From positions 1 through 20,176 of IMG/VR virus record IMGVR_UViG_3300010885_003069: a stretch of DNA of 20,176 nt. One strand, 5' to 3'. How positions within the stretch are numbered: position 1 is the stretch's first letter; the number at the start of each line of letters is the position of its first letter. The notes below the pieces were generated by a model. That model was not told the DNA's origin. It did no database searches and saw only the letters and a program-made list of their open reading frames with translations. Both the position numbers and the translations under genes were made by a program. Positions 2,447-19,230 of the stretch are shown piece by piece. The DNA comes from a virus.

Positions 2447-4081
2447 TTATTCCTCAACAAATTCACTTTCTAATGATCGTAAACTATCGTCGTCTTGTTG
2501 ATCAAATAACGGTAATCCGTCTGGACCAAGTCTAATAACCGGAGTACCTTCAGTAATAAACAAATTGTTATATTCGTTGTCAGCAGGACCACCTTGCAGT
2601 CTAGCACCTTCGAGACTCTTTAAAAATAATTGTGCAGAGTCAATCATATCAAATGCTTCTGCTTTAGTCTTGGTATTGAATAGTTCTTCGATAAATGTAG
2701 AAAAATATAATATTTTGTTTGGAACCCAATCACTATATTCTTTCTCTTTTTTACCTTCAACGCCTTTCATTCTCCAGTCTGGTTTAAATCTAGCACATTC
2801 AATATCCATCAACTGTTGAGCACGTTGTACAGCAATAATATGACATTCAACATTATGTCCCATCATTAACGCATAGGCAAAACTATCCCACGATGTTTTG
2901 TTAGGAATTTTACCTAGCTTGTTTAGTCTAGGAACTTCGTGATAGTGTTCTGTATTCAAGTGATTAAATTTAACACTGCCAAGCTCTTCGTCAGTCTTGC
3001 GAACACCTATATTGTAGTAGGCAATATCACCCATAGTAAGTCGACTTGCAAATTCGCTGTCAAACGGGTACGGAATGTCTGATTCTGAAAGTAACTTGTT
3101 ATCTGGAGCCTTATCCATAATAACACTCCAACGCTTGTTGGTATGTTGTGCATTTGTATACACAAGTCCGTGAGCAGTGGCAATAAACGGTGACGCACAG
3201 TCAAAACTGATTGTGAGTTCTGGATTGATATGCTTACGTATTTGACGTTGAATCTGTGTTAGATAACAACTCCAATCAAGTTGTGCAGTACCCAAGAAGT
3301 GAATCCAGTTCTTGCCAGTAAGCATTCCTTCGTCACGCATTGTCATTAATCGTTTAAGTGTAATAGGCATCTTGCACATATTAGCACCACCGAAAGCCCA
3401 ACCTTCGGCTTCTTTACCAGCATACTTGCCTTTAGGATCACTAAACTCCACAACACCTCGGTACCACTTTTCAGCAGTATTCCAGTCACCACCTTGTAAT
3501 ACGTTAAGCCATTTAGTCTGACCTAAACGATTTTGCAAGAAGTAGTCGTTGTTAAAGCGAGTTTTTTCTAGACAGTCTTCAAATGTTTTCAATCCAGTCT
3601 TAGGACTGTGAATATGATCGCAAGCCCATGTTGGAACGTCTAACATCATAGACCAATCAGCAGTTAGTTCTAACCACTCAAGGATCTTTTGACGAGTCTT
3701 AGTAGCTTCGGGACCTTCGAAGTCTAGCCAATCAAACTTAAGAACACCTTTACCAATCTGATAACCGCCGGAGTCACCAAGGATCATAGTGTTATTGCGA
3801 TCTCGTTGCTGAATCATTGATTCTTGTATCATACTTTTATTTAGGTCTAACTGTGCATGACCCGCAGAATACAGACCGTATTTGTATGTAAAGTAACCTT
3901 GTTCTGGATTAAGGAAGTTCATACCTTCAATACCACGATCGAATCCTTTAGGGATTCGATCTGTAGGAACAAATTCTTCCAGTCTTTGCTTTGCTATGTA
4001 TGTGCTATAGAAACTACTAATAGCAGGCAAATATACTGCGTAATCTTTTTGTAATGGGGTTAAATTAACTTGTCGTGTCAT
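2447..4081 (-). CDS. dpdA: DpdA-like 7-deazaguanine DNA transglycosylase (TGT superfamily)
   Basis: The protein has 544 residues and keeps the signature blocks of tRNA-guanine transglycosylases: LGDSGGYQ (101-108), with Asp103 in the position of the substrate-binding catalytic Asp; MLDVPT around D148; LQGGD (195-199); WAFGGANM (228-235); and SFDCASP (292-298), with D294 in the place of the nucleophile that forms the covalent intermediate. In the DpdA branch of this superfamily the enzyme swaps guanine in DNA for a 7-deazaguanine such as preQ0 or a derivative. I do not see the CxCxxC zinc cluster of bacterial TGT. That absence, the longer length, the phage context and the QueD-like gene in the same operon all argue for a DNA enzyme rather than a queuosine tRNA enzyme. 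The likely role is to protect phage DNA from host nucleases. The start overlaps the preceding gene by 17 bases. Confidence 0.72.
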   Translation of the reverse strand: MTRQVNLTPLQKDYAVYLPAISSFYSTYIAKQRLEEFVPTDRIPKGFDRGIEGMNFLNPEQGYFTYKYGLYSAGHAQLDLNKSMIQESMIQQRDRNNTMILGDSGGYQIGKGVLKFDWLDFEGPEATKTRQKILEWLELTADWSMMLDVPTWACDHIHSPKTGLKTFEDCLEKTRFNNDYFLQNRLGQTKWLNVLQGGDWNTAEKWYRGVVEFSDPKGKYAGKEAEGWAFGGANMCKMPITLKRLMTMRDEGMLTGKNWIHFLGTAQLDWSCYLTQIQRQIRKHINPELTISFDCASPFIATAHGLVYTNAQHTNKRWSVIMDKAPDNKLLSESDIPYPFDSEFASRLTMGDIAYYNIGVRKTDEELGSVKFNHLNTEHYHEVPRLNKLGKIPNKTSWDSFAYALMMGHNVECHIIAVQRAQQLMDIECARFKPDWRMKGVEGKKEKEYSDWVPNKILYFSTFIEELFNTKTKAEAFDMIDSAQLFLKSLEGARLQGGPADNEYNNLFITEGTPVIRLGPDGLPLFDQQDDDSLRSLESEFVEE

Positions 4082-7980: not shown

Positions 7981-8274
7981 TTAATTAATTAGCATTCTTA
8001 CTAACCCAACAGTATCTATAGTGGTTAGCAAAATATAGTTAGCCAGCATACCAAAAGATTTCCTAGTCCAGCTAGCCCAAGCATACAAAGCACAACCAGT
8101 AATCCAAACGGGATAAAGAGCAAGAAGCGGAGGGTTGGGGACGGTAATCGCCATAGTGATGGAGCAACCAATGCTAATAGCCCAAGCAACAAGCTCAACA
8201 ATAAAGCGAGTTCGATTGGACTTAAAGTCATCTTTTATCCACAGTATTGTTGGACCAAATATTGTATCTATCAT
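7981..8274 (-). CDS. Small multi-pass membrane protein, 97 aa
   Basis: The protein contains about three hydrophobic segments: FIVELVAWAISIGCSITMAI, then LLALYPVWITGCALYAWASW and YILLTTIDTVGLVRMLI. They are separated by short charged turns (WTRKS). The layout superficially recalls small PnuC-like or holin-like proteins, but no conserved motif allows a choice, so its function is unknown. Similar small proteins occur near gp43 in marine T4-like phages, from memory. It begins inside the stop of the DsbA-like gene (4-base overlap) and shares the promoter of that gene. The stop is 71 bases before the polymerase start codon. It probably acts in the inner membrane of the host. Confidence 0.72.
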   Translation of the reverse strand: MIDTIFGPTILWIKDDFKSNRTRFIVELVAWAISIGCSITMAITVPNPPLLALYPVWITGCALYAWASWTRKSFGMLANYILLTTIDTVGLVRMLIN

Positions 8275-8534
8275 TCAGGTAGACGTTTAGTGACACCGAG
8301 AATCATTTCGATATCATTCCATTCTTGTTCGTGATCTTTCCAATTATCTTTGTGTGCAATCTTAATTGCCTTGTTGATAATGCTAGGTTTAATTTGTAGT
8401 TCTTCTGCCACTGCCTTAACAGTTTCTTTCAAACCTTCTGACAGGTCTTCGATTTCTCTAATGACATTAGAGCCTTCGTTGATAAGACGCTCAAGTTTAG
8501 CTTTTTCTTCCGGACCGTACATTCTTGTTGACAT
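8271..8534 (-). CDS. DsbA-like late-transcription / dsDNA-binding protein
   Basis: This 87-residue, mostly helical protein resembles T4 DsbA, a double-stranded DNA-binding protein (89 residues) that binds near late promoters. The resemblance rests on the size and on a C-terminal block INKAIKIAHKDNWKDHEQ followed by EWNDIEMILGVTKR. T4 DsbA ends in a comparable segment with ALYHKDNRDVFEAE. The N-terminal half is a long helix rich in Glu and Lys (LERLINEGSNVIREIEDLSE). A clear ribosome binding site, AAGGAG (8541-8546), stands 6 bases before the ATG at 8534. The gene follows a near-consensus sigma-70 promoter, so it is likely made early. That would be in line with a regulator acting before late transcription. 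Confidence 0.6.
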   Translation of the reverse strand: MSTRMYGPEEKAKLERLINEGSNVIREIEDLSEGLKETVKAVAEELQIKPSIINKAIKIAHKDNWKDHEQEWNDIEMILGVTKRLPE

Positions 8535-8555: not shown

Positions 8556-8584
8556 ATTATACAGCCGTAAAAAAAGCCAGTCAA
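8556..8584 (-). promoter_or_regulatory. Near-consensus sigma-70 promoter for the dsbA-like/gp43 operon
   Basis: On the minus strand TTGACT (8584-8579) is followed, after 17 bases, by TATAAT (8561-8556). This is one mismatch from the full consensus with ideal spacing. It is followed by AAGGAG and the ATG at 8534, giving a leader of about 15 bases. The -35 box overlaps the terminator hairpin of the upstream operon. Confidence 0.82.
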
Positions 8585-8601
8585 TACATAACTGGCTTTT
8601 T
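8571..8601 (-). terminator. Rho-independent terminator after the 301-residue late gene
   Basis: A perfect 11-bp inverted repeat (8571-8581 pairs with 8591-8601) encloses a 9-base loop. On the minus strand the stem core GCCAGT...ACTGGC is followed by a run of seven T, the form of an intrinsic terminator. It lies 17 bases beyond the stop of the preceding gene. The flanking A and T runs would also allow some termination on the other strand, but no gene comes from that side. It is interleaved with the promoter of the next operon. Confidence 0.85.
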
Positions 8602-9558: not shown

Positions 9559-9566
9559 TATTTATC
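9559..9566 (-). promoter_or_regulatory. T4-type late promoter (GATAAATA) for the 301-residue gene
   Basis: GATAAATA on the minus strand differs at one base from the T4 late consensus TATAAATA. It lies 34 bases before the ATG at 9524, leaving room for a leader of about 25-30 bases containing AAGGAA. It overlaps the stop codon of the 58-residue gene. No sigma-70 -35 box accompanies it, as expected for a late promoter. Confidence 0.6.
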
Positions 9567-9738
9567 TTCTTAGAAGAGTTTCTTTGGCGGGCTTTTGAGC
9601 CTTCTTGTTAGTTCGTTTTTGTTGATAACTACCCCCAAACAACGTTCCTACATTTGGTCCAGATCCACCCTTAATAAAAGCAGCAACATCTCCAGCACCC
9701 ATTCCTGTAGCTGTTTCGAGTAATTCTTTAATTTTCAT
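9562..9738 (-). CDS. Small protein with capsid-targeting-like N-terminus, 58 aa
   Basis: This short ORF fills the gap between two longer late genes. It reads MKIKELLETATGMGAG and so on, with a glycine-rich middle (FIKGGSGPNVGTLFGG) and a basic tail (QQKRTNKKAQKPAKETLLRR). The first eight residues, MKIKELLE, match the MKxxELxE pattern of neighbouring proteins and resemble the T4 capsid-targeting sequence ending in Glu. Removing them would leave a small basic peptide, as expected for an internal protein that packs with DNA. The start is 4 bases after the stop of the metallopeptidase-like gene. No Shine-Dalgarno sequence is obvious, so translation may be coupled. Confidence 0.65.
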   Translation of the reverse strand: MKIKELLETATGMGAGDVAAFIKGGSGPNVGTLFGGSYQQKRTNKKAQKPAKETLLRR

Positions 9739-9742
9739 ACAG

Positions 9743-10528
9743 TTATTTATTTGAATATCTAGAAAGGTATCCGTAGAGTTCTTTTTTAACTTTTTGCCAT
9801 GTACCAGCAGACCCCAACTTTAAGTATCCACCATAGTATTTACTTGCTAGATATAAATGATGTAAAACCGGTAGATTTACAATTTTTCCACCTACTACTG
9901 CGTATTCTTCATTTTTTACTTGCTGTAAAATACCGTTTAATACTTTTAAAGATTTATCGCCTAATGCATTTTGTATGTCGTTAGCAACTTCACTAACCCA
10001 AGCATCACTTTCTAAATTATCTAGTAGATATAAGAAATGTTTTTCATTTTCATTTTTAGCAGGCGGAGGCTGTTTTTTAAACGGACTGTTTGAAAGATCC
10101 AATGCAGTGCCCGCATCATTGTTATTCATTTGCTGACTAACTTGATGAGCATGGTTTAATTCGTGTACTAGTCTAGAACTAATTTTATCTAAAAATTTAG
10201 GCAAGCTACTATTATCTAATATCACGCCCACGTTTATAGTAGAAATTATTTCGTGTTTTAATGGAGATTCATATACCAGATGTTCGGCATCTAATACAGA
10301 AGTAGATGATTCAGAATCATCTACAAATTTAGGACTGATAGTTATTGGACCTGTAACATTGGTCTTAGCCCATTCTTTAAATGCTTTACCTTTGTTTAAA
10401 TTTTTAAAAAACTTTGAGTACCATTCAATACTTGATCCAGTTGCTGGCAAAGGTGGTGCCGATGCGCCTACCCACGAATTAACCCAGTCAGTGCTCATGC
10501 GTTCAATTATAAATTCGTAACTTCTCAT
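9743..10528 (-). CDS. Putative zinc metallopeptidase with capsid-targeting-like N-terminus
   Basis: The 261-residue protein contains HELNHAHQ at 122-129. It is a classic HExxH zinc site (H122, E123, H126) in a helix (SRLVHELNHAHQVSQQ). A Glu-containing helix about 50 residues later (NLESDAWVSEVAND, E173) could provide the third ligand, as in gluzincin-type peptidases. The N-terminus MRSYEFIIE fits the tag shared by several neighbours and resembles the T4 capsid-targeting sequence cleaved after Glu by the prohead protease. If so, the mature enzyme would be carried in the capsid and probably injected into the host. The substrate is unknown. The start overlaps the chitinase-like gene by 4 bases. 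HExxH alone can occur by chance, but its helical context and spacing are convincing. Confidence 0.65.
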   Translation of the reverse strand: MRSYEFIIERMSTDWVNSWVGASAPPLPATGSSIEWYSKFFKNLNKGKAFKEWAKTNVTGPITISPKFVDDSESSTSVLDAEHLVYESPLKHEIISTINVGVILDNSSLPKFLDKISSRLVHELNHAHQVSQQMNNNDAGTALDLSNSPFKKQPPPAKNENEKHFLYLLDNLESDAWVSEVANDIQNALGDKSLKVLNGILQQVKNEEYAVVGGKIVNLPVLHHLYLASKYYGGYLKLGSAGTWQKVKKELYGYLSRYSNK

Positions 10529-11637
10529 TTCATTGCCAATTTAAAACCTTGGAACTTATCTTTTCGTTGATCTAAATGATTCATTCCAGGATTGATACCT
10601 TTAGTAACATCTTTAACATTATCAAAGTTTTTAATTTTATTGCTGACTCTATTTTGCCAAAACCAAACAGATGTTTTAGCAGCTACTTCTGGTTTTTCTA
10701 CAAGTGACGGATCTTTAACAAGACGATCATCACCATATATGGCTTTGGATGCCGCAGCATAATTGTATTTGCCGGTTAGTTGTATATACCCTCTTCCAGC
10801 ATACTTTGCTCCATCTCCGGGTTTTGTATTTCCTAAAGCTGCCGCCTTCTTAGGGGCAAATCTAATATCATACTTTTTAAAATCTAACTTGCCGCCTATT
10901 TCTTTCATGTGCTTAAAATCTATTGTTTCATGGGCACACTGAGATAAAAATGCCACAAGCTCTTGTCCCTGTATGCCTGCTTTCTCTGCTGCTTTCTTTA
11001 GGACAACTTCGTGCGGATTACCTGTAACGCTATTTGATATTTCTTTCTTACTAACTTGTGTTAATGGATCAATTTTTTTAACATCTTGTTTTTTAATCTG
11101 TTGAACAACTGCTGGCTTTTCTATTGGTTTCTTTTTAGCAGCGTCTGCATCGCCATGTCCACCTAATGCAGCAGCGCCTATAGCAGCCCCCGCGACCCAA
11201 TCTTTCCAGCCCTCGTCGATTTCATCGCCCTTTGTGGATTTTTTTAATTGCCATTGTTTTAAAGAATCCCATTCACGATCAGTAAGTGAAATTCCTCTAC
11301 GATGCTTGTCTAATAAAAGTTTAATCCAGTTGTCGTTGTCTTTATGATTACTAACTACTCTAGAATCAGTTGCAGGATTCCATTTCTTTTTAGGAGGCTC
11401 ATCTTTAAGGAAACTTAAAAATCCTTCCTGTTCTACTTCTTCATGTTTTTTACGGCCAGCTTTCATGTTAGCTAACCAGTGTGCCATTCGAGCTTTTTCA
11501 CCAGAACTATTTTTAGCAGTCTTACGCAAACTGCTTACACTGGCTTTGGTATTAACTCCACTGCGTTTGGCCAGTCCCTTACGACCCGGCTTCTTACCGT
11601 CTGCAAAGTTTTCAGTGATAAATTCACTTGCTCTCAT
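10525..11637 (-). CDS. GH19 chitinase/lysozyme-like protein with capsid-targeting-like N-terminus
   Basis: The 370-residue protein has several parts. Residues 1-9 (MRASEFITE) are the tag shared with its neighbours. Residues 15-62 form a basic module (GRKGLAKRSG, then SSGEKARMAHWLANMK) that I recall from other marine phage proteins. Residues 148-160 are a short hydrophobic stretch (VAGAAIGAAALGG). From about 205 comes a glycoside hydrolase family 19 domain with AFLSQCAHET (E237, the predicted catalytic acid), the GDGAKYAGRGYIQLTG block (275-289) and NY. GH19 enzymes cut chitin or peptidoglycan. In phages they are usually endolysins or virion-associated lysins. The tag and operon suggest that this one is packaged in the capsid, which would be unusual for an endolysin. 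A virion lysin or tail-associated role is the alternative. Confidence 0.78.
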   Translation of the reverse strand: MRASEFITENFADGKKPGRKGLAKRSGVNTKASVSSLRKTAKNSSGEKARMAHWLANMKAGRKKHEEVEQEGFLSFLKDEPPKKKWNPATDSRVVSNHKDNDNWIKLLLDKHRRGISLTDREWDSLKQWQLKKSTKGDEIDEGWKDWVAGAAIGAAALGGHGDADAAKKKPIEKPAVVQQIKKQDVKKIDPLTQVSKKEISNSVTGNPHEVVLKKAAEKAGIQGQELVAFLSQCAHETIDFKHMKEIGGKLDFKKYDIRFAPKKAAALGNTKPGDGAKYAGRGYIQLTGKYNYAAASKAIYGDDRLVKDPSLVEKPEVAAKTSVWFWQNRVSNKIKNFDNVKDVTKGINPGMNHLDQRKDKFQGFKLAMK

Positions 11638-13437: not shown

Positions 13438-14052
13438 TTAATATCCTTCTTCCATTGTGTCTTTTATACCTAGTCCGTCTCTCACTGCGTGGAATAATGC
13501 CTCTGCATATTGTCCAGCACCGGTAGTTTTAATAAAATCATCTAGGTTGTTTTCTTTTGCCTCTTCTCGAGCCCTACTAGCACTAACACCTTCGAGGCCA
13601 TCACCATCTGGACATCGTTGTCCACATGACACAAAGTTCAGTGTATCAAATTTATAGTATCCGTGCGATTTGCCTTCTATACCGTTGTAATCAGATAACA
13701 ACTTTTTAAATGTTCCTAAGCGATCGTCACCTGCTACAAACGTAGCGTTATGATATCCTTGATCATAAACAAAACTAGCAACTTTTACAATTGTGTTTAA
13801 CTCAGTATTTACTACAACCTTATCTGCATGTTCTGGAAACAATAATTTGACAAATTTAATTTTTGTAGAATAATCTAACGGATTTTCTCTTTTATCTTTA
13901 GTCTGACTAAGAAATATTTTATAATCCCCACCAACACGTTGCATAGTATCAAACATTTGTTTGTGACCAATCGTAGGAGGATTCATTCTACCAAAACAAA
14001 AGGTAAGATGTTTTCCGCTATCTTTAGACTCAAACAATTCTAATAGTTTCAT
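13438..14052 (-). CDS. Nucleotidyltransferase-fold protein (HxGH-type) with capsid-targeting-like N-terminus
   Basis: The 204-residue protein has CFGRMNPPTIGHKQMFD at 19-35, the nucleotide-binding strand-loop-helix of cytidylyltransferase-like enzymes, with TIGH in place of HxGH. It also has VSASRARE at 157-164, matching the iSxTxIR phosphate-binding motif. Further family features are FLSQTKDKRENPLDYSTKI and the AGDDR segment. Relatives such as NMN, pantetheine or glycerol-3-phosphate nucleotidyltransferases make a nucleotide or nucleotide-coupled product. The substrate cannot be read here. The first His of HxGH is Thr, as also seen in related phage proteins. The start MKLLELFES resembles the capsid-targeting tag, so the mature enzyme may be packaged. 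The start overlaps the previous gene by 4 bases. Confidence 0.78.
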   Translation of the reverse strand: MKLLELFESKDSGKHLTFCFGRMNPPTIGHKQMFDTMQRVGGDYKIFLSQTKDKRENPLDYSTKIKFVKLLFPEHADKVVVNTELNTIVKVASFVYDQGYHNATFVAGDDRLGTFKKLLSDYNGIEGKSHGYYKFDTLNFVSCGQRCPDGDGLEGVSASRAREEAKENNLDDFIKTTGAGQYAEALFHAVRDGLGIKDTMEEGY

Positions 14053-14387: not shown

Positions 14388-14608
14388 TATTGTTCTCCGC
14401 CTACATCTAAGCCTAATGACTTTGCTTCTTTGTCAAGATCTGCTTTACGTTGCATTATAGCACGTTTAATTTCAGGGTCGTTAGATTCGGGATCTGATTG
14501 TAGATCTTGTAGAGCTTTAAGTTTGGTTTTATAATCGCCAAGAGGATTATCAGCATTTAGTGCTGTTTCAAACATTGCAAGTTCAATTTTTGTGATAAGG
14601 TCTCTCAT
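14387..14608 (-). CDS. Hypothetical helical protein, 73 aa, first gene of the late operon
   Basis: I do not recognise a family. It is a short, charged, all-helical protein: MRDLITKIELAMFETALN, then YKTKLKALQDLQSDPE and EIKRAIMQRKADLDKEAKSL. There are no Cys residues and no membrane segment. It is the first gene after the late promoter at 14633-14640. Upstream of the ATG only a weak CGGAA is available as a ribosome binding site, and the start codon lies at the edge of an 8-bp inverted repeat. Its stop overlaps the next start by one base. It may be a small structural or assembly protein, by position only. Confidence 0.65.
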   Translation of the reverse strand: MRDLITKIELAMFETALNADNPLGDYKTKLKALQDLQSDPESNDPEIKRAIMQRKADLDKEAKSLGLDVGGEQ

Positions 14609-14633
14609 AGTATGTTCCGTAGGGTCATACTAT
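14607..14633. repeat. 8-bp inverted repeat between late promoter and start codon
   Basis: ATAGTATG (14607-14614) and CATACTAT (14626-14633) are perfect inverted repeats around an 11-base spacer. One arm includes two bases of the ATG of the 73-residue gene; the other touches the late promoter octamer. A transcript starting about 6 bases after the octamer would lack most of the upstream arm, so it is more likely a DNA-level site, or chance, than an RNA hairpin. Confidence 0.5.
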
Positions 14634-14640
14634 ATTTATC
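14633..14640 (-). promoter_or_regulatory. T4-type late promoter (GATAAATA) for the capsid-protein operon
   Basis: GATAAATA on the minus strand lies 24 bases before the ATG at 14608, matching the T4 late promoter at 7 of 8 positions. It would start the long operon down to 9743. No other plausible promoter precedes that operon. Confidence 0.62.
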
Positions 14641-14652
14641 GTTCAAACGACG

Positions 14653-15021
14653 TTAATAATTATAACGGATTGAGATAATCGTACCGTCTTGTAGATTGTA
14701 TGCAGCACGAATCCACATAAAATTTCCAGTAAAATTTCGACTAAATGATACAGCATCTACTGTTTCGCCACTCATAACAGTACTATCATCGCCTATAGTA
14801 GTACCGTCGATGTCAAACCAATCATTGTCTCTGGGGTACATTGCTAGTGTACCTTGAATTTTCACTGTGCCACTGAAGGCATTAACTGTGTATACCGCAG
14901 TGTGTAATGGGTTACTTAGGCGATAATACCCTGCACCTGGTTGTTTTGTACCGTAGGAAAACGATAAATCAACAGCTTCTGCGTTGATATTTTCTAATAA
15001 TAAATGGCTTTCTATTGACAT
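14653..15021 (-). CDS. Beta-rich hypothetical protein, 122 aa
   Basis: I do not recognise a family. The sequence is dominated by short alternating beta strands (GAGYYRLSNPLHTAVYTVNA, then FSGTVKIQGTLAM, then AVSFSRNFTGNFMWIRAAYN and GTIISIRYNY). It has no Cys and few charged residues, the composition of a small phage virion or receptor-binding accessory protein. The only usable start is the ATG at 15021, 3 bases after the stop of the previous gene. Only GATAAATA stands directly before it, with no Shine-Dalgarno sequence. It is either translated by coupling or from a nearly leaderless late transcript. The structural role is inferred from composition only. Confidence 0.68.
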   Translation of the reverse strand: MSIESHLLLENINAEAVDLSFSYGTKQPGAGYYRLSNPLHTAVYTVNAFSGTVKIQGTLAMYPRDNDWFDIDGTTIGDDSTVMSGETVDAVSFSRNFTGNFMWIRAAYNLQDGTIISIRYNY

Positions 15022-15024
15022 CTG

Positions 15025-15699
15025 TTATTTATCGCTAATTTTATATTCGTATACCTTGCCCACAGCATCAGAATTTCTTATTTTTAATAACAGTAGAGTT
15101 TGTTCGTTATCTACAAATACATATCTACGATCCCAATTCCAGTCTGTGGTAATGAACCACGCCTTTACAGAGTCGGACAGCAAAATTTTATTATTTTGAG
15201 CAGTTATCCATGCTATAAACTCTGTCTTTGCAGTTTTATCTCTTGCAAGTTTATGCGGTCTAAGGTATACTTTGTATCTATAAAGATTATGCGGTAATTT
15301 TTTTGTTATTATAGTATATTGGCTTTCGTTAGCCAGCATGTCATTAGCCGGTTCGTAGCAGTGAACCACTAGATCGGATAACACCTCACTTATTTGTTTG
15401 TACAATAATTTATTATTTGTATATATATCTATAGAATTTGATTCTATTCGCTTTGCCCATTCAGTAATATCAGTTGTAAGTAAGAAGTTACAAACACGTT
15501 TTATTGTTCTTTCGTTTGCTCGTACTTTGTGCATCATACTATGTGTAGGATGTGTACTATACGGTAGATGATTTTCAATATAATCAATTACGCTTTCGAG
15601 AGATTTTGTTCGTAAAATGGTTATACCGGACACTTTAAGTGTGACCTTATATAACCACTTTCCGTAAAATTTACGATTGGTTGTTTTCTTCTTCAACAT
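15025..15699 (-). CDS. Hypothetical protein, 224 aa
   Basis: I do not recognise a family, though similar proteins exist in marine phages from memory. The start I prefer is ATG 15699 (MLKKKTTNRKFYGKWLY); the longer option at 15720 adds MLTRLLI and would overlap clpA by 50 bases rather than 29. The protein is basic, with beta-like segments at both ends (FYGKWLYKVTLKVSGITIL, then NLYRYKVYLRPHKL, then DRRYVFVDNEQTLLLLKI) around a helical middle (VRANERTIKRVCNFLL). It contains one aromatic-rich stretch (WFITTDWNWDRRYVF). No enzyme motif is visible. Its place after clpA suggests it shares that early transcript. Confidence 0.72.
   Translation of the reverse strand: MLKKKTTNRKFYGKWLYKVTLKVSGITILRTKSLESVIDYIENHLPYSTHPTHSMMHKVRANERTIKRVCNFLLTTDITEWAKRIESNSIDIYTNNKLLYKQISEVLSDLVVHCYEPANDMLANESQYTIITKKLPHNLYRYKVYLRPHKLARDKTAKTEFIAWITAQNNKILLSDSVKAWFITTDWNWDRRYVFVDNEQTLLLLKIRNSDAVGKVYEYKISDK
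15026..15033 (-). promoter_or_regulatory. Late-promoter-like octamer GATAAATA directly before the 122-residue gene
   Basis: GATAAATA on the minus strand overlaps the stop of the preceding gene and ends 4 bases before the ATG at 15021. With the usual T4 late spacing, transcription would begin at or within the start codon. It may be a real late promoter giving a leaderless message, or an AT-rich coincidence with the stop codon. Confidence 0.4.
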
Positions 15700-18004
15700 T
15701 ATTAATAATCTCGTCAACAATACCTAATTTGCGTTTACCTGCCTTTGTAAGAATTTTTGCAAGTTCTTCAACAGTAAAAGACAGCTCATTGTCAACAATG
15801 CTTATAGTTACTCGTCCTCCATTGACTAGATCCCCAAATAATACCCTACGACTTAACGGACTTTTAATTTGATTATCAATTAGTCGAGCCAACGGTCGTG
15901 CCCCCATCTTTTTGTCATATCCCTTATCAGCTAGCCATGTAGCTGCTTCGGAAGATAAGACAATTTCAATGTTCTTTTCTTTTAATTGATCGTTTAGTTC
16001 GCTGACAAACTTTTTAACAATTTGAATAACAACCTTATCGTCTAAGCTACGGAACTTAACAATAGCATCTAAGCGATTTCTAAATTCAGGAGCAAAGAAT
16101 TTCTTAACTGCTTTATCGTCTTCGCCTTCCTTGCCTAGATCACCGAATCCAATAGTATTACGCTCGCTATCGGCAGCACCTAGATTACTAGTCATAATCA
16201 AAATAGTATTACGACCGTCAGCTTGTTTGCCATTTGATCCGGTAACAAATCCATTATCCATGAATGCTAGTAGAATATTAGTAACATCGGGGTGTGCTTT
16301 TTCAATTTCGTCAAGCAACAAAATAGCATTAGGATGTTCTTGAAGCTTGGTAATCAATTGCCCGGCATTGTCTTCGTAGCCAACATAGCCCGGAGGAGCA
16401 CCAATGAGTCTAGAAACACTATGCTTCTCCTGATATTCGCCCATATCGAAACGAATTAGTTCCATTCCCATCTTATTAGATAGTGCTTTTGCTGTTTCTG
16501 TCTTACCTGTACCAGTTGGGCCTAAGAATAAAAATGAACCAATGGGTTTATTTGGAGATTTCATGCCTGCCTGGCTTACAAAAATCTTATCTAACAGATT
16601 TGCAATAGCAGTATCTTGTCCGTAAACAGCAGACTTCAAACCTTTTTCTAAATCAGCAAGATTTTTAGATTCTTTCTGAGCAACAGTTTCTAGTGGCATA
16701 TTAATCATCTTGGATAATTCATATGTAACTTGTTCAATGTCAACAATTTGTTCAACACCTTCTGTTTCTACATCATCTTTTAATTTATAACGGGCAGATG
16801 CACAATCTAAAATATCAATTGCTTTGTCCGGCAATTTTTTATCAGCCATATATTTTACAGATAATTTAACTGCTTGTTCAATAGCAGCATCTGTAATTTT
16901 AACATTGTGATGCTTTTCATAATACTTACGAATGCCTTTAAGGATTTTAACAGACATTTCTGGACTAGGTTCGTCGATAGTAACACGTTGGAATCTGCGC
17001 ATTAGGGCACGATCCTTTTCAAAGTGCTTGCGATATTCTTCCCAGGTAGTTGATGCAATTAGTTTAATAACACCTTTGGTTAAAATTGGCTTCAACATAT
17101 TAGCCATGTCGTTGCTACTGTTATTAGCAGCGCCAGCACCTTGCATCATATGTGCTTCGTCAATAAACAAAATGATCTTGCCTTTTTGTTCCAACGCTTT
17201 TAAAACTGCTTTGATTCGTTCTTCAAAGTCTCCACGATACTTACTACCGGCAAGCAACGCTGAGATATCAAGAGTGTATACTTGATGGTCTTGAATAAAC
17301 TTAGGAACTTTCTTTTCAAAGATTTTACGTGCAAGTCCTTCTGCAATAGCAGTCTTACCTACACCTGGCTCACCTACCATTAGAACGTTACATTTACTAC
17401 GACGAGCTAGAATAAGTTGAATCTTTTCAAGTTCCTCGTCGCGGCCAATTACAGGATCAATTTTTCTTTGTTTAGCTGCGACACTGAGATTTGTACAGAA
17501 GGTATTGATAACACGTTCCATTTGAGAACTGTTAGCAACAGGCATTGATGTGTCATCGGAATCTTCTGGCTCAAGATTTTCTTGAAAGAACTTGATAAAC
17601 TTTTCTTTTGTAAGACCGCCTTTACTTAAAAAGTAAAAACCAAAGCTATTCTTTTCGCTTAGTACACTGATAATAATGTCGGCAACTTCCATCCGTTGAC
17701 GACCACTAAACAATACCTGTGTAAAACATCTATTAAGAACACGCTCAACTGAGGTAGTTTTTTTAGGTTTATTATCTTCTTCTTCTGTTTTTATATCATT
17801 AAGATTGTTTTTTAAATAATGATCTAAGTTAGATTTAATAAAGTTAGCATCGGCTCCAAACTTTGCAATAGTCTCAAACGACTGCGCATCACACATAATA
17901 GCATATATTAAATGTTCTATGGTGATGTATTCGTGCTTTAATCCCTTGGCATTATTAACAGCACTATCGAAAATATGTTGAAGGTTGTTACTTGGTTCGA
18001 TCAT
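15671..18004 (-). CDS. clpA: ClpA-type AAA+ unfoldase (Clp/Hsp100 ATPase)
   Basis: The 777 residues are the size of ClpA (758 in E. coli). Order of domains: Clp N-terminal repeat domain (1-150); first AAA+ module with Walker A GEPGVGKT (211-218), Walker B ILFIDE (278-283) and arginine-finger region RRFQRV; second AAA+ module with Walker A GPTGTGKT (495-502), Walker B ILLLDE (561-566) and FRNRLD. The ClpB-type middle coiled coil is missing. An IGF tripeptide at 618-620 sits in the loop by which ClpA docks on ClpP. No ClpP gene is in the window, so it would use host ClpP and redirect proteolysis. The text around the loop is closest to alphaproteobacterial ClpA from memory. A promoter lies just upstream. 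Confidence 0.95.
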   Translation of the reverse strand: MIEPSNNLQHIFDSAVNNAKGLKHEYITIEHLIYAIMCDAQSFETIAKFGADANFIKSNLDHYLKNNLNDIKTEEEDNKPKKTTSVERVLNRCFTQVLFSGRQRMEVADIIISVLSEKNSFGFYFLSKGGLTKEKFIKFFQENLEPEDSDDTSMPVANSSQMERVINTFCTNLSVAAKQRKIDPVIGRDEELEKIQLILARRSKCNVLMVGEPGVGKTAIAEGLARKIFEKKVPKFIQDHQVYTLDISALLAGSKYRGDFEERIKAVLKALEQKGKIILFIDEAHMMQGAGAANNSSNDMANMLKPILTKGVIKLIASTTWEEYRKHFEKDRALMRRFQRVTIDEPSPEMSVKILKGIRKYYEKHHNVKITDAAIEQAVKLSVKYMADKKLPDKAIDILDCASARYKLKDDVETEGVEQIVDIEQVTYELSKMINMPLETVAQKESKNLADLEKGLKSAVYGQDTAIANLLDKIFVSQAGMKSPNKPIGSFLFLGPTGTGKTETAKALSNKMGMELIRFDMGEYQEKHSVSRLIGAPPGYVGYEDNAGQLITKLQEHPNAILLLDEIEKAHPDVTNILLAFMDNGFVTGSNGKQADGRNTILIMTSNLGAADSERNTIGFGDLGKEGEDDKAVKKFFAPEFRNRLDAIVKFRSLDDKVVIQIVKKFVSELNDQLKEKNIEIVLSSEAATWLADKGYDKKMGARPLARLIDNQIKSPLSRRVLFGDLVNGGRVTISIVDNELSFTVEELAKILTKAGKRKLGIVDEIINNVEEENNQS

Positions 18005-18006
18005 AA

Positions 18007-18111
18007 TTATTTTTGTTTCCTACAGTTCAATGTAATTAATTGTAATGTCGTTGACAGTGTATTGTCAATAAACAGTTGCTCGTGTGTGTAGTGATCTAAT
18101 TTAAAATTCAT
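18007..18111 (-). CDS. Small hypothetical ORF, 34 aa, between dnaJ and clpA
   Basis: The ORF reads MNFKLDHYTHEQLFIDNTLS and so on and ends ITLNCRKQK. It fills the gap between the J-protein and ClpA exactly: it starts 11 bases inside dnaJ and stops 2 bases before the clpA ATG. No good ribosome binding site precedes it, so coupling to dnaJ is needed. The clpA promoter and an 18-bp palindrome lie within it, which could argue that the segment is regulatory rather than coding. Confidence 0.4.
   Translation of the reverse strand: MNFKLDHYTHEQLFIDNTLSTTLQLITLNCRKQK
18039..18068 (-). promoter_or_regulatory. Putative sigma-70 promoter for clpA
   Basis: On the minus strand a perfect TTGACA (18068-18063) is followed, after 18 bases, by TACAAT (18044-18039), five of six consensus bases. 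A leader of about 28 bases with AGGA precedes the clpA ATG at 18004. The -35 box is one arm of a palindrome (18051-18068). Confidence 0.65.
18051..18068. promoter_or_regulatory. 18-bp palindrome over the clpA -35 box, possible operator
   Basis: TTGACA (18051-18056) and TGTCAA (18063-18068) are perfect inverted repeats separated by 6 bases. A site of two 6-bp half-sites covering the -35 box is the usual geometry of an operator for a dimeric regulator. A second TTGACA faces the other way without a matching -10 box. It is not a terminator, since no T-run follows. Confidence 0.4.
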
Positions 18112-18937
18112 TTTTTAATTGTTCAATAGTACTTCGTTGCTGACTAGATATATTACGAGGGATAACTACTCGTATCTTAATCAATAAATTTCCTCTAGCC
18201 TGTGAACGCATGTTAGGCAATCCTTCATTCCTGCAACTTAGTACAGTATCACTTTGAGTCCCGGCTGGAATGTTAATTTCTAAATTCTTACCATTAAGTG
18301 TTAAAATTTCTATTTTGCAACCTAGCATTGCATCCCAAACAGAAATTTGTCTTTCAACTACAAGAGAGTCTCCTTCTCTTTGAAATTCTGGATGATTTGC
18401 AATTCTAATATTTACTATTAAATCTCCTGGCGGCAAATGAGGAATACTGTTATCACCCATACCTGAATATCGAATCTGTTGTCCTTCATTAATGCCTGGA
18501 GGAATATTAATGTTAATTAATTTAGTTTTCCCGCCCGGCATACTAATTTCAGCATCTAGTGTTTTACCTGTCAGAACTTCTTCAAGGGTAACATCGACGC
18601 CAATGTTAATAGTCTTGTTTCGCTGCATTTGCCTGTGCCCACCAAACCCAAAGTTCCCAAATATATCATTAATATTTCCGGTATTGAAATGGAACTCAAA
18701 AGGTCCTTGATTAAATCCACCACCAGGATGAGGTTGCCCATTGGGATCACCGCCCATATCGACAATTTGTTTTTTCTGTGGATCAGTCAACACATCATAT
18801 GCTTCACTGATTTTTTTAAATGTTGCTTCATCCCCTCCACGATCGGGATGATGTTTCATAGCCATCTTACGATAAGCTGATTTTATTTCATCGGGTGATG
18901 CGTTTCGTTGAACGCCTAGTGTAGAGTAATAGTCCAT
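18101..18937 (-). CDS. J-domain co-chaperone, type II (DnaJ/CbpA-like)
   Basis: The 278-residue protein starts with a J-domain (DYYSTLGVQRNASPDEIKSA), with HPD at 30-32, the motif that triggers DnaK ATP hydrolysis. A Gly/Phe-rich linker (about 63-105) and C-terminal substrate-binding domains (105-270) follow. The DnaJ zinc-finger repeats CxxCxGxG are absent, so it is type II, like CbpA. It should work with the host DnaK, since no DnaK is in the window. Together with ClpA next door it may steer host protein folding and turnover or help capsid assembly. The first codon is fixed because the J-domain begins at residue 2. No ribosome binding site precedes it, and the -10 box is only 5 bases before the ATG. 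Confidence 0.93.
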   Translation of the reverse strand: MDYYSTLGVQRNASPDEIKSAYRKMAMKHHPDRGGDEATFKKISEAYDVLTDPQKKQIVDMGGDPNGQPHPGGGFNQGPFEFHFNTGNINDIFGNFGFGGHRQMQRNKTINIGVDVTLEEVLTGKTLDAEISMPGGKTKLININIPPGINEGQQIRYSGMGDNSIPHLPPGDLIVNIRIANHPEFQREGDSLVVERQISVWDAMLGCKIEILTLNGKNLEINIPAGTQSDTVLSCRNEGLPNMRSQARGNLLIKIRVVIPRNISSQQRSTIEQLKNEF

Positions 18938-18942
18938 AGTTT

Positions 18943-18971
18943 ATTATACATGAAAGAAAAGGCTGCGTCAA
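18943..18971 (-). promoter_or_regulatory. Sigma-70 promoter of the dnaJ-clpA module
   Basis: On the minus strand TTGACG (18971-18966) is followed, after 17 bases, by TATAAT (18948-18943), one mismatch from consensus. The dnaJ ATG begins only 6 bases after the -10 box, so the transcript should start at or next to the start codon. The -35 box lies in the loop of the terminator of the upstream operon. Confidence 0.85.
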
Positions 18972-18981
18972 GCAGCCTTTT
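18957..18981 (-). terminator. Rho-independent terminator after the lysis-like operon
   Basis: A 10-bp perfect stem (18957-18966 with 18972-18981) encloses a 5-base loop, GC-rich at the core (GGCTGC/GCAGCC). On the minus strand it is followed by TTTTCTTT. It lies 24 bases past the stop of the small exported-protein gene. Confidence 0.85.
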
Positions 18982-19005: not shown

Positions 19006-19230
19006 TTATTTTTTCTTAGCATCTTCTGGTTTAGTGCCGTCGTGTTTCTTATGTGCTTTAACTTCTTTGCATTCTTGTTTGGGCTTTTTAGTTTTTGGAT
19101 CAATAACAGGCTTTCCGTCCTTGCCCTGTGCATCAACGCAGACTTTTTTAGTTTCTGCTTTAACTTCTTCGGCTTGAACCCCGCCTGCTAATGCTAATGC
19201 TAGACCTGCTACAAATATAATATTTTTCAT
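19006..19230 (-). CDS. Small exported lysine-rich protein, 74 aa
   Basis: I chose the ATG at 19230 rather than a longer in-frame start because it has AAGGA 7 bases upstream and gives a textbook Sec signal peptide: MKN, then a hydrophobic core (IIFVAGLALALAGG), then VQA as a likely signal peptidase site before EEVKAE. The mature part of about 54 residues is very rich in Lys and contains two Cys (VCVDAQG, then KQECKEV) that could pair in the periplasm. It has low-complexity PKTKKPK and HKKHDGTKPEDAKKK stretches. It lies 11 bases after the holin-like gene and is the last gene before a terminator. A role in the host envelope is likely, and lysis is a guess from context. Confidence 0.72.
   Translation of the reverse strand: MKNIIFVAGLALALAGGVQAEEVKAETKKVCVDAQGKDGKPVIDPKTKKPKQECKEVKAHKKHDGTKPEDAKKK

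Follow-up and report, generated by a model that had tools for sequence, protein, structure and literature searches.

A terminator-promoter composite ahead of a phage dnaJ gene and a recurrent class of predicted leaderless genes

The dnaJ locus and its terminator-promoter element

The window, that is the whole 20,176-nucleotide stretch analysed here (IMG/VR record IMGVR_UViG_3300010885_003069), represents a 20-kb piece of the genome of a T4-related myovirus belonging to a freshwater jumbo phage group. Relatives of this phage include a 353-kb contig, G003; among cultured phages, those closest to it by DNA polymerase are Agrobacterium phage Atu_ph07 and Sinorhizobium phage Phosso (46–50% identity). 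The features around dnaJ are the following.

15671–18004, minus strand: ClpA/ClpB-like AAA+ ATPase, downstream of dnaJ (Pfam)
18101–18937, minus strand: dnaJ, 278 aa, J domain with HPD and DnaJ_C (Pfam)
18937, minus strand: predicted transcription start, the A of the dnaJ ATG, with T at -1 (from the spacing and the 5–7 nt class described below)
18943–18948, minus strand: -10 box TATAAT (window scan; relatives)
18957–18981, minus strand: terminator-like hairpin with a 10-bp stem and loop TTGAC, then CTTTC (window scan, folding, compensated changes in relatives)
18966–18971, minus strand: -35 box TTGACG (window scan; TTGAC kept in relatives)
19006–19230, minus strand: upstream gene, 74 aa, signal-peptide-like start as in a secreted protein (ORF list)

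The predicted DnaJ matches PF00226 (3.5e-22) and PF01556 (1.5e-41) and contains MKHHPD, and Pfam gave no zinc-finger family match in it. By its predicted domains it is thus a type II, or CbpA-like, protein, with an HPD J domain and DnaJ_C and without zinc finger. An alternative start of dnaJ is ruled out: the in-frame TAA at 18943–18941 excludes an earlier one, and since the J domain begins at residue 2 a later one would destroy it. On the other side of the element, the stop codon of the 74-aa gene lies 24 nt ahead of the hairpin, which is predicted to end the transcript of that gene; for 71 of the 74 residues of its product there was no Pfam match. The clp gene has its own promoter-like site, TTGACA-N18-TACAAT (18068–18039), and a longer leader. 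The dnaJ-clp neighbourhood is also present in Atu_ph07 and Phosso.

Read on the minus strand, the hairpin and its tail are AAAAGGCTGC-TTGAC-GCAGCCTTTT-CTTTC, and the layout as a whole is TAAATAAAAGGCTGC-TTGAC-GCAGCCTTTTCTTTCATG-TATAAT-AAACT-ATG, so that terminator, promoter and start codon are packed into 47 bp. The -35 box consists of the entire hairpin loop together with the G that opens the 3′ stem arm. A sequence-only reading of this DNA had described the loop and stem edge as spelling TTGACG, 17 bases before TATAAT, with the dnaJ ATG six bases after the -10 box and no visible Shine-Dalgarno (SD) sequence. These coordinates and this description hold: the spacer is 17 nt, five bases (AAACT) separate the -10 box from the ATG, whose A is the sixth base, and no SD is visible in the sequence preceding the ATG, TTTTCTTTCATGTATAATAAACT. 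In the window scan, both the promoter and the hairpin rank first, among promoter-like and terminator-like sites respectively, and the promoter is one of four with 11/12 consensus matches. The folding energy of the hairpin is -14.8 kcal/mol versus -5.2 ± 2.1 in shuffles (z -4.6). The U-tract that follows (TTTTCTTT) is interrupted, and the efficiency of termination, like termination itself, is a prediction.

Conservation of the element and a second composite

Conservation was examined in 34 IMG/VR loci with a related DnaJ. The hairpin, the loop TTGAC, the 17-nt spacing, the -10 box and an ATG after 5–6 nt are all kept at L002–L007, L015, L022 and L032, where DnaJ is 62–74% identical, and at L024–L028, where it is about 43% identical and where the composite stands behind a different upstream gene. 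The stems vary with compensation (GGCTGC/GCAGCC, GGACTGC/GTAGTCC, GGCAGC/GTTGCC). Two loci (L033, L034) have hardly any hairpin but retain the promoter and the ATG close to it. Four groups of sister loci (L008–L011, L012–L014, L016–L018, L020–L021) retain the hairpin and the SD-less ATG and have no -35/-10 promoter. That the hairpin is kept without the promoter in these lineages indicates that it is valuable on its own, most simply for termination, and that dnaJ must be expressed otherwise there. The promoter half is, by this comparison, dispensable; it was lost, or never gained, in several sister lineages. In two of these loci (L020/L021), just before position 3001, the hairpin loop is AAGGAGG and the ATG comes directly after the stem, an arrangement that looks as if the stem joined SD and start.

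A second composite of this kind was found in the window.

8571–8601, minus strand: terminator-like hairpin with TTGACT (8584–8579) in the loop and 3′ arm (window scan, folding, related contigs)
8271–8534, minus strand: DsbA-like transcription regulator, 87 aa, downstream of the second composite (Pfam)

It reads AAAAAGCCAGT...TTGACTGGCTTTTT (8601–8571), and TTGACT is followed after 17 nt by TATAAT at 8561–8556. The regulator gene is led by an SD (aaggag), with its ATG 21 nt after the -10 box. This composite is also conserved in related contigs; the sequences of the two composites in the window are unlike, and related contigs have one or two each. More generally, a terminator-like hairpin lies over the -35 box at 10 of 191 unique strong promoters from 15 related contigs, against none of 1141 positions slid by 100–300 bp; in phage 121Q, this is the case for 2/117 promoters. 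Since the element is conserved and such overlap is absent from the slid positions, chance overlap of hairpin and promoter is ruled out, as it is by the genome-wide excess of 5–7 nt spacings reported below. These comparisons support the proposal of the sequence-only reading that a terminator and a promoter are shared between successive genes, an overlap now seen in related phages as well.

PeSLs (promoter-early stem-loops) have reportedly been described in T4-type phages by Arbiol (2010) and Comeau (2014). The dnaJ element is like them in that a sigma70-type early promoter (11/12, spacer 17) and a terminator-like stem-loop (z -4.6) are fused in a short intergenic segment of a T4-related myovirus. 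Since terminator-promoter composites are already known as PeSLs, the composite half of our finding is of a known kind. Unlike in PeSLs, the hairpin loop itself is here the -35 box and the dnaJ ATG follows directly, so that the predicted 5′ end of the mRNA falls at the start codon.

Short promoter-to-start distances at sigma70-type and late promoters

Distances between sigma70-type promoters and start codons were counted in 1.14 Mb of related contigs, for unique promoters with at least 11/12 consensus matches; the contigs are metagenomic and gene starts were called by simple ORF rules. The distances are bimodal, either 5–7 nt without an SD or 18–36 nt mostly with one. An ATG that opens an ORF lies 5–7 nt after the -10 box at 27 of 192 promoters, where 1.4 would be expected from neighbouring offsets, a count that is not fully independent because the contigs are partly related. 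Scrambled consensus pairs give 0–3 at these distances. The short class comprises dnaJ (11 contigs), queE (4 contigs) and single or paired cases of a primase, a DexA-like exonuclease and a UV endonuclease; some of its small members are probably due to chance. It occurs at many genes without any hairpin. The 5 nt at dnaJ in the window is one below the commonest value. When a -10 box ends at -7, six intervening bases put the ATG at +1 and five put it one base earlier, within the usual range.

We also examined promoters of the late type. In G003, ATAAATA is enriched upstream of genes (45 versus 13 on the reverse strand). Compared with ATAAATA, the variants GTAAATA/TTAAATA show only weak enrichment there. 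The late motif NATAAATA, which resembles the T4 late motif TATAAATA, stands either 4–7 nt or about 14–33 nt before the ATG; the valid control motif for this spacing is AAATATTA. The late form in the window is GATAAATA, exact TATAAATA and TTAAATA being absent from the window or on its plus strand only. Two genes there are predicted to be leaderless late genes.

15026–15033, minus strand: late-type motif GATAAATA; the ATG of a virion-protein-like gene (14653–15021) follows after 4 nt
9744–9751, minus strand: late-type motif AATAAATA; the ATG of a 58-aa gene (9562–9738) follows after 5 nt

In the family of the first gene, the late motif stands 4 or 5 nt before the ATG in 11/15 contigs. The motif GATAAATA is also found at 14633–14640 on the minus strand, 4 nt before the ATG of a 7-codon ORF (MTLRNIL) whose TGA overlaps the ATG of a 73-aa gene at 14608 (minus strand); motif and first codons are shared with G003, and this may be a leaderless upstream ORF that is translationally coupled to the gene. 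Elsewhere in G003, dense early promoters of the form TTGACAnnTTGGnCn..GCTATAAT precede small genes (positions 310000–327000; L051, L052), and this is probably the early region.

At short distances, the start codon is always ATG (28/28 for sigma70-type and 59/59 for late promoters), and GTG and TTG are found only at longer ones. The base at -1 is a pyrimidine in 25 of 28 cases of the sigma70 short class versus 43 of 92 (p 5.6e-5), and in 49 of 59 cases of the late short class versus 53 of 89 (p 0.003), as expected if the A of the ATG is the transcription start. Together with the distance of 5 nt, the AUG start and the missing SD, these regularities point to a leaderless dnaJ mRNA and so favour the start predicted in the sequence-only reading, the transcript start being a prediction here too. 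That reading had treated dnaJ as a singular case. This view is rejected: leaderless starts are predicted for many genes of the group besides dnaJ, at sigma70-type and late promoters alike. The advantage under stress or early in infection that the same reading suggested for a leaderless dnaJ is speculative.

Interpretation and distribution of the proposed leaderless class

Altogether, we consider it quite probable that the element is a PeSL-type terminator-promoter composite, that the dnaJ mRNA is leaderless and that dnaJ belongs to a recurrent leaderless class. RNA of the upstream gene would end at the hairpin. On the DNA, the hairpin loop would supply the -35 box to a sigma70-type promoter, with the -10 box immediately past the U-tract, and host RNA polymerase with sigma70 would begin transcription at the A of the dnaJ ATG or next to it. 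Ribosomes would then bind the leaderless mRNA through its 5′-terminal AUG, and both sigma70-type and T4-like late promoters would serve the class. As a terminating polymerase would sit on the dnaJ promoter, interference or recapture is possible.

Three other explanations were weighed. First, a late promoter immediately ahead of the hairpin (conserved TTAAATA/GTAAATA) could give a dnaJ mRNA that carries the hairpin as a 5′ stem-loop; the locus would then have two promoters, and the hairpin would not be, or not only be, a terminator. Indeed, 12 of 14 aligned loci (near matches counted), including loci without the sigma70 promoter, have TAAATA adjoining the hairpin on its 5′ side, and NATAAATA acts as a late motif in these phages. 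However, the U-tract of a terminator is also usually paired with an A-rich stretch of this kind, and the two variants concerned are those with only weak enrichment upstream of genes. We regard this explanation as unlikely. Second, dnaJ could be translated mainly from transcripts of the upstream operon that read through the hairpin, or from RNA cleaved between the hairpin and the start codon, with a promoter that is a minor or dispensable addition. This would suit the sister lineages that have a hairpin and an SD-less ATG without promoter, as well as Atu_ph07 and Phosso, where dnaJ lies inside an operon. We judge it rather improbable, as most relatives retain promoter and hairpin together, down to 43% DnaJ identity, and the excess at 5–7 nt is genome-wide. 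Most doubtful is that the element persists as a patch for recombination, a role proposed for PeSLs, its exact overlap with the ATG being of little importance: the change of upstream gene at L024–L028 would fit, and PeSLs are credited with gene shuffling in work cited in PMC4503421, but the element sits in the conserved dnaJ-clp neighbourhood, not obviously a shuffled region, and many genes have the leaderless spacing without a hairpin.

The reading of a leaderless dnaJ within a larger class leads to the question of how far this class extends. Short sigma70 cases number 0 in T4, S-PM2, 121Q and Atu_ph07 and 1 in Phosso; short late cases number 0 in T4 and Phosso, 1 in S-PM2 and in 121Q and 2 in Atu_ph07. 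Thus, unlike the window group, Atu_ph07 and Phosso have promoters almost without the 4–7 nt class; they share the dnaJ-clp neighbourhood, but their dnaJ has no composite. At consensus promoters among the IMG/VR matches listed, ORFs of at least 60 aa were opened by 76/120 ATGs at 6 nt versus 19/83 at 12 nt. In a second IMG/VR sample, with promoters outside the selection, the count was 10/233 at 6 nt and near zero at 9–17 nt, again among the matches listed. Proteins in the IMG/VR sample include a clamp loader, a primase, exonucleases, thymidylate synthase, a ligase and another J-domain protein. The same peak in this sample indicates that the leaderless class is not confined to the lineage of the window.

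The lambda cI mRNA is leaderless. In Bacteria, 'TA-led' genes are leaderless genes with a -10 box about 10–12 bp before the start codon, and beta-proteobacteria have 6.8% leaderless genes on average in the 9/71 genomes having them (PMC3160421). The phage genes described here are like lambda cI and the 'TA-led' genes in having a -10 box about 10–12 bp before the start, no leader and an AUG, and unlike them in forming a whole class in lytic-type phages that includes T4-like late promoters. A literature search with partial coverage found no paper on a leaderless class in T4-type phages. On balance, we lean towards a broader view, in which many uncultured T4-related phages generally, and under selection, produce leaderless mRNAs from both early and late promoters. 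The genes so expressed would comprise replication genes (primase, clamp loader, exonucleases, thymidylate synthase), dnaJ, queE and virion genes, and such mRNAs would have escaped notice because they are lacking in T4 and its commonly studied relatives. If so, a large group of environmental phages would run part of its expression through 5′-terminal AUGs, from early and late promoters. No SD pairing would be needed, and these phages could escape or exploit changes of ribosomes or initiation factors during infection. The sequence rule of a promoter 4–7 nt before the ATG would then help to correct start sites, and to select phages for the study of leaderless translation during natural lytic growth.

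A tie between phage bS21 and the leaderless class was considered and is unsupported, because Atu_ph07 and Phosso have bS21 almost without the class and, among the contigs, only G003 and G016 show it. In G003, bS21 (33352–33510) lies near dnaK. Among the products of this contig are a complete DnaK and an Hsp20-like protein (L183:1492–3896; region G003:34565–36358), and its dnaK is SD-led, with TATAAATA upstream. The G003 DnaK is closest to that of Burkholderiales (70–74%), which weakly suggests a freshwater beta-proteobacterium as the host. Finally, other genes of the window, on the minus strand, encode a cytidyltransferase-like protein (13438–14052) and an endolysin-like protein whose N-terminus carries a long extension (10525–11637), and an N-terminus of the MR-A/S-x-E type is common to several window genes.
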